Below, piece after piece: positions 42,269-47,183 of a stretch of DNA of 62,636 nt. Origin of the DNA: Bacteroidales bacterium (GTDB lineage Bacteria; Bacteroidota; Bacteroidia; Bacteroidales; UBA932); contig JAFSJK010000019.1 in assembly GCA_017439305.1 (NCBI GenBank), positions 1-62,636 of the forward strand. The letters run 5' to 3'. Position 1 is the stretch's first letter; each line of letters opens with the position of its first letter. Below the pieces are notes generated by a model. The model was not told where the DNA came from. It saw only the letters and a program-made list of their open reading frames with translations, and did not search any database. Position numbers and translations under genes: made by a program.

Positions 42269-43213
42269 CTACCGCTCGGCGCGGATGGGGTTGTTCAGGA
42301 AGTCGGCGTAGGCGAGGCGGATGCCGTCCTCGAGCTCGGTGCGGTAGGTCCAGCCGAGGGCGGTGGCCTTGGAGACGTCGAGGAGCTTGCGCGGGGTGCC
42401 GTTGGGGCGGGAGGTGTCCCAGCAGATGGTGCCGGTGTAGCCGACAACCCGGGCGACAAGCTCTGTCAAAGCCTTGATACTCAATTCCTTTCCCGTGCCC
42501 GCGTTCACAGTTTCGTTCCCGCTGTAGTTATTCATCAGGAACACGCACAGGTTCGCGAGATCGTCGACATAAAGGAACTCGCGCAAGGGGGAACCGTCGC
42601 CCCAGCAAGTCACCGACGGCAGCCCGGCGACCTTCGCTTCGTGGAAGCGACGGATCAGGGCGGGCAGCACGTGGGAATGCTCGGGGTGATAGTTGTCGTT
42701 AGGCCCATACAGGTTCGTCGGCATCACGGAAATGTAGTCCGTGCCATACTGCCTATTCAAAAACTCGCAGTACTTCAACCCCGAAATCTTCGCCAATGCA
42801 TACGCCTCGTTCGTCTTCTCCAGCGCACCCGTCAGGAGGCAGTCCTCCTTCATCGGCTGGGGAGCCAGACGCGGGTAGATGCAGGACGATCCCAGGAACT
42901 CGAGCTTCCGGCAGCCATTCTTCCATGCCGCATGTATCACGTTCATTTCCAGGATCATATTCTCGTACATGAAGTCCGCGAGAGCGCTTTGGTTGGCAAC
43001 AATGCCGCCCACCTTGGCCGCCGCGAGGAACACGTACTCCGGCTTCTCGGCGGCGAAAAACGCCTCCACATCGGCCTGGCGAGTCAAATCCAATTCCTTG
43101 TGCGTGCGCAGGACCAGGTTCGTGTACCCCTGGCGCTGCAGTTCGCGCACGATGGCCGAGCCCACCATCCCCCGGTGGCCCGCCACATAAATCTTAGCGT
43201 TCAAATCCATCAT
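42269..43213 (-). CDS. fcl: GDP-L-fucose synthase
   Basis: A 314-residue SDR enzyme (also called WcaG) that epimerises and reduces GDP-4-keto-6-deoxymannose to GDP-L-fucose with NADPH. The Rossmann loop is [12 protein letters not shown], the active-site serine and cysteine lie in FLGSSCIYP, and the YALAK segment supplies Y and K. Length is normal. The ATG at 43213 overlaps the stop of the preceding gene by 4 bases. With gmd two genes upstream it completes the GDP-fucose route. The frame extends further upstream inside the neighbour, but that is not needed. Confidence 0.95.
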
Positions 43214-44373
43214 AATGCTCCTCTCCTTCTGATATGCAGTTCGATAGCCCCTTCCGGGAAATGCGCCCGGTCGGCGCAGACAAGGGCGAGATACCCCCCG
43301 CCCCCGGCGCCCGGCATCTTCCATGCCAGGACACCGTCCATCGAACCATACTTGTCAATATACTCAGGTACCCCCGGCTGGATCATCGCCTGGAACATGG
43401 CGACCTGGGCCTCGAACGAGGCCTTGTACGCCGCCGCAAATCCGGCCAGATCACGGGCCAGAATCGCATTCCAGCACGCCTCGGCTGCAGCCGCCAACGC
43501 CTCGACCTTCGGCTTCGTGATATCCTTCCCCTCCACCACCGAGCAGCCCGGCCGGCGCGGGAACATCGGAATCATGCACAGGTGGTCCTCCAGCCAGCAC
43601 AACACCGCCTCATCGTGGCAGGACTCAATCTTTTCCGGCCAAAAACGCCCTCTGTACCAATGCCTTACAAGCCCCGGCATGCAAATGCCGATGGAATCCT
43701 GCGCCCCGGAAATGATCCCGTCGGACCGCTCCGGATCATTCTCGAAGCAGAAAACCAGCTTCGCCAGCGTCTCCGGATCCATGTTCGGCAGCTGGAAAGG
43801 CCAGATCTTCCGGATCATGTTCCGGGTCGATGTGGACAGCCCGCACCGCTCCCGCACCTCGAAAGTCGGCTCCAGGGAGATAGTCAAGGCCCATCCCGGC
43901 GCGAAGCACGACACATACGGCTGGTCGATCCAGGTGCCCGCGAGGTCCAGACGCGTCGGGATCTGGCAGGGCGTCTGCTTCAGCGCCGTGCTGGAGCGGG
44001 CTTCCAGCCCCTCCTGCGGCGTGCGCTGCAGCACGACATACTTGATCCCTCGCTCCTCGCACAGCCGACGCTTCTCCTCGCTGCCTCCATCCTCGTTCAC
44101 GACGAAAATATCCGGCTTCACGATATCCAGCGTCGGCACAAAGTCCATCACCCCGTCCCCCGCATTGATGAACGCATCCTTCACATACCGGATCGCCTTC
44201 ACCATGAACAGCCGCTCGTTCTCGCTGTAAATCGTCTTGTGATGCTTATAATGCAGGATCGTCTCGTCCGAGCCAATCCCGACATATAAGTCCCCGAACT
44301 GCGCCGCCTGCCGGAAAAATTCCACATGCCCGCTGTGCAGCAGGTCATAACAACCTGATACGAAAACCTTCAT
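43210..44373 (-). CDS. Cytidylyltransferase-like protein fused to a GHMP kinase-like domain
   Basis: A 387-residue two-domain protein. Residues 1-130 are a nucleotidyltransferase with [13 protein letters not shown] (the HxGH motif) and GSDETI. The rest resembles GHMP kinases of the heptose type: [12 protein letters not shown] at the start, [13 protein letters not shown] in the middle and [13 protein letters not shown] near the end. The glycine/serine-rich phosphate loop PxxxGLGSS typical of GHMP kinases is not visible, so kinase activity is doubtful. It lies between gmd and fcl and should work on a fucose-related sugar, yet neither step of the standard route needs it. The ATG at 44373 is preferred to a TTG two codons upstream. 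Confidence 0.72.
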
Positions 44374-44438: not shown

Positions 44439-45746
44439 TTACTTCACGATACCTTTTTCAAGGTACTCTGCCAAATTCATCCGCACCTTCTCCGCAGCAC
44501 CCTCACCGGCGACCTTCGCCATGTCGTGCTCGACCATCAGCTTCACGAGCTGCTCGAAGGAGGTCTTCTGCGGATTCCAGCCCAGCTTCGCCCGGGCCTT
44601 GGTCGGGTCGCCCCACAGGTTCACGACATCGGTGGGCCGATAGAAGTCGGGACTCACCTCCACGAGAGTCTTGCCGACCAGGTCGGCAGGACCGGCGATG
44701 CAGACGCCCTTCTCATCGGCACCCTCCCCTACGAACTCCAGCTCAATGCCCACATGATGGAAAGCCAGCCGGCAGAAGTCCCGCACGCTGTGCTGCACGC
44801 CCGTCGCGATCACGAAGTCCTCCGCCTTCTTCTGCTGAAGGATCAGCCACATACACTCCACGTAGTCCTTCGCGTACCCCCAGTCGCGGAGGCTGGAAAG
44901 ATTGCCGAGGAACAGCTTCTCCTGCTTGCCCTGGGCGATACGCGCGGCCGCCAAAGTAATCTTCCGCGTCACGAAAGTCTCGCCCCGGCGCTCGGACTCA
45001 TGATTGAACAGGATACCCGAGCAGCAGTACATCCCGTACGCCTCGCGATACTCCTTCACAATCCAGAAACCATAGAGCTTAGCCACCGCGTAAGGGCTGT
45101 ACGGATGGAACGGAGTGTTCTCATTCTGAGGCACTTCCTCCACCTTTCCATAGAGCTCCGAGGTCGATGCCTGATACACCCGGCAAGTCGCGCCAAGCCC
45201 GCACTGCCGCACGGCCTCCAGCACGCGGAGGACGCCGGTCGCATCGACATTCGCCGTATACTCCGGCGAGTCGAAGCTCACCTGCACATGGCTCTGCGCC
45301 GCCAGATTGTAGATCTCGTCCGGCCGGACCTTCGCCACCACCTGCACGAGGCTCATGGAGTCGTTCATATCGGCATAATGCAGATGGAAATGCGGCCGCC
45401 CCTCCAGATGGGCGATGCGCTCGCGGAAGTCCACCGAACTCCGGCGGATGATCCCGTGCACGTCATACCCCTTCTCCAGCAGGAACTCCGACAGGTACGA
45501 ACCGTCCTGGCCCGTCACGCCCGTAATCAATGCAGTCTTCATAGGATGATGTCTATCTTTTGTCAAGTTGATGCCCAAGGCCGATTCAATCTGCCGCAGG
45601 CTCTGCGCGCCGATGCCCACCTTTCCGGCCAACCACCGGCTCACCGCGGTCTCGTCCTTGCCGATCCTTTCGGCCAATTCCCGCTGCGAAACGCCCTTCC
45701 CGGCCAGTGCAGCCTTGATTTTGCTGATAATCTCGTAATCTACCAT
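44439..45746 (-). CDS. gmd: GDP-mannose 4,6-dehydratase with N-terminal XRE helix-turn-helix domain
   Basis: GMD converts GDP-mannose to GDP-4-keto-6-deoxymannose. Residues 69-435 are a full-length [15 protein letters not shown], the TSELYG serine site and [11 protein letters not shown] with catalytic Y and K. Residues 1-68 are an XRE/Cro-type helix-turn-helix ([23 protein letters not shown]). No stop or frameshift separates them. The promoter places the start at the GTA-preceded ATG at 45746, five bases after the -7 element, so the fused protein should be made; internal initiation at the GMD methionine (45542) is also possible. TTGAC-type inverted repeats upstream look like operators for the HTH, which suggests the enzyme represses its own operon. 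Confidence 0.88.
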
Positions 45747-45751
45747 ACCCA

Positions 45752-45782
45752 CAAAGTTACACCATTCGCACGACTTGACAAA
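45752..45782 (-). promoter_or_regulatory. Promoter of the XRE-gmd / fcl operon
   Basis: Full consensus on the minus strand: TTTG (45779-45782), a 19-base spacer and TAACTTTG (45752-45759), with ATG five bases further on. The -33 box is part of a TTGACAAAATTTT element, so a protein bound there would block transcription. Confidence 0.8.
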
Positions 45783-45824
45783 ATTTTCCATCATAAAAAT
45801 AACGATTGACAAAATTTTAGTCAA
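45775..45824. promoter_or_regulatory. Candidate operators for the XRE-GMD protein
   Basis: TTGACAAAATTTT occurs twice, at 45775-45787 and 45806-45818. The second copy continues to give the inverted repeat TTGAC-N9-GTCAA (45806-45824). The first overlaps the -33 element. A third half-site, CTTGACAAAA on the minus strand, lies at about 45558-45567 at the end of the HTH-coding part. Binding by the fused XRE domain is inferred. Confidence 0.5.
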
Positions 45825-45841
45825 GCATTCCGTTCATTATT

Positions 45842-45902
45842 GGACATCGAACAGGGGGATGGGCCTCCGAAAAAAGTCGGCCCATCCCCCTGTCCGATGT
45901 CC
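45842..45902. terminator. Long near-perfect hairpin downstream of the aspartokinase-like gene
   Basis: Two 24-base arms (45842-45865 and 45879-45902) pair with one mismatch around a 13-base loop containing six A. It starts 19 bases after the stop at 45921 as read on the minus strand. No T-run follows, so it is either a factor-assisted terminator or a palindromic repeat that insulates the aspartokinase-like gene from the gmd promoter. Confidence 0.45.
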
Positions 45903-45920: not shown

Positions 45921-47183
45921 TTACAGGATCGACAGCGCCTCCTCGGCGGCGGCGCGGTCGGAGTTGCGGATCACGAAGGAGATCGTGAGTTCGTCACCGC
46001 CCTGGGCGGCGGAGATGATGTTCACGCCGTAGGCGCCGAGGGCCGAGTAGATGCGGCCGGAGGTGCCGGGAACTTCCCGCATGCCATTGCCGCAGACCGA
46101 CAGCAGGCACACATCCTCCACGATGTCGGTCGCATCGTCCAGGGATACCTGGCCGTCCTTGTACAGGCCGGAAAGGGCCTCGCGGGCGACCGGCAGGTCC
46201 GCCGCGGTAACCGCAACGGTGATGCAGAATTCGGAAGAAGGCTGGGAGATAAAGCGGATGTTCACGCCAGCGCGGGCCAAAGCGCCGAAGATGGACGATG
46301 ACACGCCCACCTTGCCCACCAGGCCGGTGCCGCGGACATTGATGAGGGCGAAACCCTCCTCCACGACATAGCCCGTGACCGCGTGGTCGGAGGCCGGCTT
46401 CCGGTCAGAGACGATGGTCATCCAGGACGGGTTCGCCAGGTCCTTGAACAGGATGGGCAAGCCAGCCTTCATCATCGGCAGGAGCGCGGCCGGAGCCATC
46501 GAACCATCCTCGACCGAGCAGAACACGGCAGCCTCCTCATAGGTCAGGGCCGGCATCTCCAAGATCTTGTCATTCAGGACATAAACCTCGACAGGCTCAT
46601 GCTCCTCGGAGGCGATGGTCATGGCCATCAGGTCCTCTCCCCTGCGGCCCAGACGGATGCTGTAGCCGAAGGCATTGTGCCCATAGCCGCTGGACAGGAC
46701 ATACAGTCCCGGAGCGGACGTACGCGCACGCAGGCGTTCCATCGACGTCTCCCAATCCACGCGAAGAGCGCCCTGATCCTCCTCGCACACCATGATTTCG
46801 GCGCCGTCGACAAAGGTGCCGCCCACGACGGCATGGACCGTCTCCGCGCAAAGACGTGCGCACTTGCCCAGCACATAATCGCGGATGGTCGTAAAGGCAG
46901 GCCGATAAACCAGGCCCTCGTCCACATAGTGGCGAAGCGCATCCAGTTCGCCATCGACCTTCACGCCGAAGGCCGCATCCGGCACCATCCCCTTGAAGTA
47001 GTCGCCGATGGCATCGAAGGCCGGCTTCGTGTCCGCCCGCTCATACAGTGCCTGTTCCAGCACGTCGATGAACATCTGACGCACCTTGTGTTCGGATTTC
47101 ACGACCAGGATGGCATCCTCCTTGGGAAGGTTGCCCAGATATTTTGCCGACGCCTCGGTCAGCTTGAAAATGCGCGTGATCAT
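45921..47183 (-). CDS. Degenerate aspartokinase-like protein with ACT domains
   Basis: A 420-residue protein that aligns in outline with monofunctional aspartate kinases: an amino-acid-kinase-like domain (about 1-275) and two ACT domains (about 290-420, with GLVGKVGVSSSIFGALARAGVNI and the GMREVPGTSGRIYSALGAYGVNI block). The key N-terminal KFGGTSV motif is absent, and the nucleotide-binding GRGGSD-type loop reads LGRRGEDLMAM. YEEAAVFCSVEDGSMAPAALLPMMKAGLPI does match the aspartokinase hinge. It is therefore probably not an active kinase; an amino-acid-sensing or regulatory role is possible. A weak TAACTTTA element lies 26 bases upstream. It stands alone between the rhaM-like gene and gmd. Confidence 0.75.
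   Translation of the reverse strand: MITRIFKLTEASAKYLGNLPKEDAILVVKSEHKVRQMFIDVLEQALYERADTKPAFDAIGDYFKGMVPDAAFGVKVDGELDALRHYVDEGLVYRPAFTTIRDYVLGKCARLCAETVHAVVGGTFVDGAEIMVCEEDQGALRVDWETSMERLRARTSAPGLYVLSSGYGHNAFGYSIRLGRRGEDLMAMTIASEEHEPVEVYVLNDKILEMPALTYEEAAVFCSVEDGSMAPAALLPMMKAGLPILFKDLANPSWMTIVSDRKPASDHAVTGYVVEEGFALINVRGTGLVGKVGVSSSIFGALARAGVNIRFISQPSSEFCITVAVTAADLPVAREALSGLYKDGQVSLDDATDIVEDVCLLSVCGNGMREVPGTSGRIYSALGAYGVNIISAAQGGDELTISFVIRNSDRAAAEEALSIL

Follow-up and report, generated by a model that had tools for sequence, protein, structure and literature searches.

An XRE-type helix-turn-helix fused in frame to GDP-mannose 4,6-dehydratase, with candidate operators at its own promoter, in Bacteroidales

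The xre-gmd gene, its neighbours and its occurrence

Within the window (the whole stretch of DNA analysed, 62,636 nucleotides), one open frame on the (−) strand at 44439..45746, with its ATG at 45746 and its stop at 44439, encodes a protein of 435 aa in which an XRE/Cro-CI helix-turn-helix (HTH) and linker (residues 1–68; 45543..45746, (−) strand; recognition helix KDETAVSRW) precede a GDP-mannose 4,6-dehydratase (GMD) domain (residues 69–435; 44439..45542, (−) strand). The first-pass annotation had described an HTH of about 68 residues in frame with a complete GMD, and this description is borne out: the junction is free of stops, and Pfam HTH_3, GDP_Man_Dehyd and TIGR01472 all match. The gene end that it gave, 45824, is a far-upstream TTG lying within the promoter, and we take the ATG at 45746 as the likely start; for the relatives, the start was set at whichever in-frame Met came last in the stretch 12 to 30 residues ahead of the HTH core, and 20 of 20 have such a Met. 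In the numbering of P0001, which is the fusion protein with one additional N-terminal residue, HTH_3 covers residues 11–63 (E 2.1e-9; 37.7 bits against a gathering cut-off of 23), GDP_Man_Dehyd covers residues 74–405 (E 2.9e-140), and Escherichia coli Gmd (1DB3) aligns to residues 71–411. The NCBIfam model gmd (TIGR01472) gives a full-length match to the fusion with 503.4 bits (cut-off 415). The catalytic motifs of GMD are TxE and YxxxK, and both are retained in the segments STSELYG and SPYAVAK, which align with 1DB3. The GMD part thus appears to be a complete GDP-mannose 4,6-dehydratase domain, for which catalysis is predicted.

We read the operon as xre-gmd followed by a cytidylyltransferase-like gene (43210..44373, (−) strand, named by family search) and fcl (42269..43210, (−) strand), predicted to encode a GDP-L-fucose synthase of 313 aa. 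The best family for the latter is NF047922 at 476 bits. Against the GDP-L-fucose synthase model, whose cut-off is 500, the window's fcl and those of L247 and L249 reach 476–480 bits and so fall short; in L247 and L249 the fcl-like gene lies directly behind xre-gmd. The C-terminal half of the 43210–44373 product weakly matches the end of fucokinase/fucose-1-phosphate guanylyltransferase (E 5.9e-5). On the other side of the gene, a hairpin with a 24-bp stem (45842..45902, (−) strand; −55.8 kcal/mol, z −10.3), situated between an aspartokinase-like gene and the putative operator, is probably a terminator. The aspartokinase-like protein (45921–47183) carries ACT domains and scores under the cut-off of all aspartokinase models; a similar gene is found ahead of xre-gmd in L062 and L247.

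A whole-protein search of 400 same-genus genomes detected GMD (E ≤ 1e-120) in 101 and, in 17 of these (the window's own genome included), a match that extends stop-free into the HTH; the HTH is therefore dispensable. One match, in G250, starts only at residue 102 and was left out of the fused/unfused call. The fused protein is the sole GMD at this threshold in all 17 fused genomes, with the best four candidates per genome scored, and its identity to the window protein is 98% in G359 and 89–93% in eight others. Among the best 80 of at least 592 relatives, three more named MAGs carry the fusion, Candidatus Colivivens equi (L063), RGIG6563 (L064) and Candidatus Colimorpha pelethequi (L065). The 142 GMD rows, with L001 and L062 left out as second copies of L005 and L035, amount to 20 distinct loci with in-frame XRE-GMD (the 17 genus genomes and the three MAGs) and 120 loci without the HTH, a few of which are near-duplicates. 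The search for such fusions in other genomes that the first-pass annotation had proposed is thereby answered positively.

Since 20 distinct loci keep the junction in frame, an assembly or frameshift error at this point is ruled out. Translation of GMD solely from an internal Met draws some support from the window itself, which has an ATG at residue 69 and a TTG eight codons earlier, and from the presence of ATG at the GMD boundary codon in 11 of the 20 fused loci. The boundary codon of the remaining nine is neither ATG nor GTG nor TTG; a TTG or GTG occurs no more than 12 codons before it in five of them and in none of the other four (L065, L142–L144). We therefore reject internal-start-only translation as a general rule and regard an explanation by artefact or by exclusive internal initiation as exceedingly improbable, whilst an internal GMD start may operate in the window itself. 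When the surroundings of GMD were searched for this HTH as a frame of its own, which would represent a split form, the profile matched fused frames only across the 142 GMD rows, the search reaching up to 3 kb upstream and up to 4.5 kb downstream, with about 1.5 kb of flank at many loci. In the unfused locus L086, the 330 nt ahead of the GMD start (~4177) contain a LuxR-type HTH-like frame that ends with a stop just short of that start, so that a different DNA-binding protein adjoins GMD there as a separate frame.

Candidate operators at the promoter and within the gene

The presumed promoter of xre-gmd consists of a −33 box, TTTG (45779..45782, (−) strand), and 19 nt further on a −7 box, TAACTTTG (45752..45759, (−) strand), which together we take to be of the Bacteroidetes type. 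The −7 box ends 5 nt ahead of the ATG, and the mRNA would therefore be nearly leaderless. Two putative operators accompany these boxes: a distal CTTGAC-N9-GTCAA palindrome (45806..45825, (−) strand), proposed on its sequence and its conservation in relatives, and a proximal half-site, GTCAAG (45774..45779, (−) strand), which overlaps the −33 box and lies 31 bp from the distal GTCAA. TTGACAAAATTTT, noted twice around the promoter at first pass, occurs exactly twice in the window (45775–45787 and 45806–45818), one copy forming part of TTGAC-N9-GTCAA (45806–45824) and the other overlapping the −33 box. When two mismatches are permitted, three matches are found where 0.94 would be expected, and shuffling yields at least three in 10 of 100 trials. 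The two copies alone are within chance; the case for the sites rests on their conservation in relatives.

This conservation separates fused from unfused GMD loci when the two are compared as raw locus counts that ignore kinship. Within 140 nt upstream, CTTGAC is present in 19/20 fused versus 4/120 unfused loci, and in two or more copies in 15/20 versus 1/120. A GTCAA pair spaced by 30–32 bp within 160 nt occurs in 14/20 versus 0/120, and the exact inverted pair in 9/20 versus 0/120. Moreover, the spacing between the sites is preserved although the sites are shifted relative to the ATG in L064 and L142–L144. The exceptions are L063 and L065, in which only the proximal site is intact, and L046, which has no sites of the CTTGAC type; L142 lacks the −7 consensus. 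The fusion is apparently encoded, then, behind operator-like, conserved sites at the promoter of its own operon.

A third putative operator copy, AACTTGACA (45561..45569, (−) strand), which was absent from the first-pass annotation, lies inside the gene at the HTH/GMD junction, with CTTGAC at 45562–45567 and spanning codons N60, L61 and T62. Here 12 of 13 near relatives keep AAC TTG ACA intact, and in these 13 sequences only 7 of 206 conserved degenerate columns use a single codon, Leu61 being alone among 32 conserved Leu columns and Thr62 alone among 16 for Thr. L142 and L143, with just 68% identity in GMD, carry CTTGAC-N9-GTCAAG at the same junction in other codons and with another amino-acid sequence, and L144 has two copies of GTCAAG at the junction. 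CTTGAC falls within the first 240 coding nt of 17/20 fused genes (L063, L064 and L046 being without it) compared with 18/120 unfused genes. Since the Leu61 and Thr62 codons are invariant and the site recurs in other codons in L142 and L143, the DNA itself seems to be conserved at the junction. The invariant Leu TTG could alternatively be a retained internal start codon. We disfavour this reading because L065 and L142–L144 lack any start codon among the 12 codons nearest the boundary; it also leaves the Thr codon unexplained, as it does L142 and L143, because the site there is in another frame.

The window genome G000 (3 Mb, 92.6% complete) contains one instance of the GTCAAG-plus-(−7) layout, the xre-gmd promoter, compared with two for the reversed control, and two sites of the palindrome pattern (one of them the xre-gmd promoter) compared with three for its reversed control. 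Considering that the reversed controls are at least as common, the pattern is too frequent to be conclusive by itself. No second promoter of the half-site plus −7 layout was detected in G000, nor any sign of a large regulon.

Selection on the HTH, its relatives and operator–helix covariation

The HTH is under purifying selection: dN/dS is about 0.03–0.22 in all 11 pairs of fused genes chosen for comparison, with GMD under tighter constraint than the HTH in every pair, and across 19 sequences ten HTH columns never vary, not counting the chosen Met. In an HTH tree of 68 columns, whose bootstrap is unsettled and for which fused HTHs were the search seeds, 23 enzyme-fused HTHs and three stand-alone proteins (one of which, L182, is flagged as a long branch) form a group that excludes the other 65 stand-alone XRE proteins (100/99). 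This grouping might suggest that the fusion arose once, with which a quick GMD tree (87 of 136 usable sequences) fits poorly: seven changes of the fused label are needed, at least three of them forced by starred branches. Recurrent joining, domain swap and repeated loss all fit the distribution of the HTH equally; by the sequences, the HTH and its candidate sites have been joined to, or retained on, quite different GMD lineages.

In a PDB search the HTH profile matches HigA structures and the controller protein C.BclI (2b5a, E 1.6e-5), and its nearest stand-alone relatives are small XRE proteins, several of them encoded next to a small ORF. In the stand-alone relatives L154, L157, L159, L162 and L163 (107–155 aa) the adjoining ORF has 130–165 aa, a toxin–antitoxin-like layout; none of these five partner ORFs has a Pfam match, and an identity as a known toxin is not supported. 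No toxin gene is paired with xre-gmd in the manner of a HigA-type antitoxin, its neighbours being aspartokinase-like, cytidylyltransferase-like and fcl. These relatives would be in keeping with a chance union of two independent functions, a small XRE protein having been fused through a lost stop and persisting as a vestige or acting solely on DNA elsewhere. We consider this very improbable, given the purifying selection, the retention of the sites at the gene's own promoter in diverged loci, and the fact that no other promoter of such a layout is present in the genome.

An HTH-only profile search of the 400 genus genomes revealed that this HTH subfamily has been joined in frame to enzymes other than GMD: to an IspD-like cytidylyltransferase in L198, with a GlpT-like transporter gene downstream, and to Gfo/Idh/MocA oxidoreductases in L199 and L200; L046/L201 is a divergent XRE-GMD. 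Helices with A, S or P at residue 33 (L198, L199, L200 and L046/L201) have CTTAAC and no CTTGAC before the gene in 4/4 cases, which represent at most three or four lineages, and those with T33 have CTTGAC in 19/19, with CTTAAC as well in three (L041, L044 and L063), these counts ignoring kinship. Shuffled controls give 0.00–0.22 sites of either kind per locus, and CTTAAC precedes 7/120 unfused GMD genes. At the level of sequence, therefore, the change in the candidate operator tracks recognition-helix residue 33.

The surroundings of these other fusions were also inspected. At L241:5737-8752 an XRE-IspD/TarI-like cytidylyltransferase gene is preceded by CTTAAC in both orientations and followed by a GlpT-like transporter gene. 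At L242:6831-13815 and L243:4850-8182 an XRE-Gfo/Idh/MocA gene stands first in a run with permease-like and nucleotidyltransferase-like genes, named by family search in L242 and by likeness of the protein starts in L243. The L242 run also encodes PEP mutase, phosphonopyruvate decarboxylase and 2-aminoethylphosphonate aminotransferase, each scoring over its cut-off. Beyond those fusions, no further enzyme fusion was recognized by frame length in 393 order (E 1e-9), 345 phylum (E 1e-10) and 393 family genomes (E 1e-13; a set overlapping the genus genomes), with up to 17 candidates per genome scored and frames >200 aa opened in the profile searches. Several candidates were rejected as enzyme fusions: L203 is a small XRE ending a long frame without a recognisable enzyme, L182 and L277 are repressor-like with a longer C-terminal part, L232 has two HTHs, and L276 is an XRE protein.

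Proposed autoregulation and relation to known systems

Taking these features together, we suggest, with a probability of roughly 0.8, that the xre-gmd product is bifunctional, acting both as an enzyme and as an autogenous regulator of the GDP-fucose operon. The XRE domain would bind its own promoter and control the xre-gmd/cytidylyltransferase-like/fcl operon, an oligomer occupying the palindrome, the half-site and the in-gene site. Occupancy of the half-site would cover the −33 box and so lower transcription of the GDP-fucose operon. The promoter sites may cooperate with the in-gene site some 210–245 bp away, possibly with the enzyme oligomer holding the intervening DNA in a loop. In its simplest form this would be feedback through the amount of enzyme, and GDP-mannose, GDP-fucose or NADP(H) on the GMD part might modulate the regulation. 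The first-pass proposal that the protein represses its own operon is accordingly kept in part: autoregulation is strongly favoured at the level of sequence by the conserved operator, the in-gene site, the covariation and the purifying selection, and the sole pointer to repression is the position of the proximal site.

The main rival is a switch like that of the C proteins, in which early binding at the distal palindrome would activate and later binding at the proximal half-site would repress, making the fusion an activator-repressor homeostat and not a plain repressor. A palindrome far upstream combined with a half-site over the −33 box would suit such a switch, as would the match of the HTH profile to C.BclI. 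However, the distal site lies about 60–80 bp before the start, farther out than in known C-protein operators, and L063 and L065 retain only the proximal site intact; we judge this switch to be unlikely.

A stronger form of our preferred reading would have the GMD part switch DNA binding in response to GDP-mannose or GDP-fucose, as the first-pass annotation had envisaged. This draws on the complete GMD domain, encoded in an operon with a GDP-fucose synthase-like gene, and on human GMD, which has an allosteric site through which a GDP-fucose analogue inhibits it (PMC12569712). On the other hand, the short linker is variable and coupling between the domains is not indicated by the sequence, and plain concentration feedback would yield an identical pattern; ligand gating is thus a real possibility at rather under even odds. 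More speculatively, and somewhat doubtfully, the XRE subfamily might be a portable feedback module on early surface-glycan enzymes (GMD, IspD-like and Gfo/Idh/MocA), its operator co-changing and the active or allosteric site of the enzyme serving as sensor; the GMD oligomer would then bridge the promoter and in-gene sites, with the level of GDP-fucose setting a repression loop.

To our knowledge, the control of sugar-nucleotide supply in gut Bacteroidales is poorly known. The conserved fusion with its mapped candidate operators offers a directly testable case of a putative self-controlling enzyme, for which a natural series of operator–helix pairs is available. Three enzyme classes on one HTH subfamily suggest a general route to metabolite-aware regulators of surface glycans, such glycans bearing fucose and, in L242, perhaps aminoethylphosphonate decoration.

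Fusions of enzyme and regulator are already known, and XRE-GMD is a new case among them; no report of an XRE-GMD or HTH-GMD fusion was found in open-licence papers. Ordinary GMDs (E. coli Gmd, 1DB3; human GMDS) share the catalytic domain and have no DNA-binding domain, and 120 of the 140 GMD loci examined are without the HTH. C proteins of restriction–modification systems, such as C.BclI, and HigA antitoxins control their own promoters through paired sites; the xre-gmd HTH is similar to theirs in sequence, according to the PDB search, whereas both are stand-alone proteins without an enzyme domain. NadR, PutA and archaeal RbkR each unite enzyme and regulator in one chain, but their folds and pathways differ from those of xre-gmd. 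BirA joins an HTH to biotin protein ligase and controls its pathway; xre-gmd likewise places an HTH and a whole enzyme in one chain, although the type of HTH and the enzyme differ. BirA is described as ligase and transcriptional repressor in one protein (PMC6391492). Finally, BzdR is described as an XRE HTH fused to a shikimate-kinase-like domain, with separate DNA-binding and effector-binding domains; it controls the genes of benzoate degradation, and loss of enzyme activity from its domain is reported to be essential (PMC3602430). Like BzdR, xre-gmd has an N-terminal XRE HTH on an enzyme-derived domain; unlike BzdR, its enzyme domain appears complete and is encoded in the very operon that the fusion would control.
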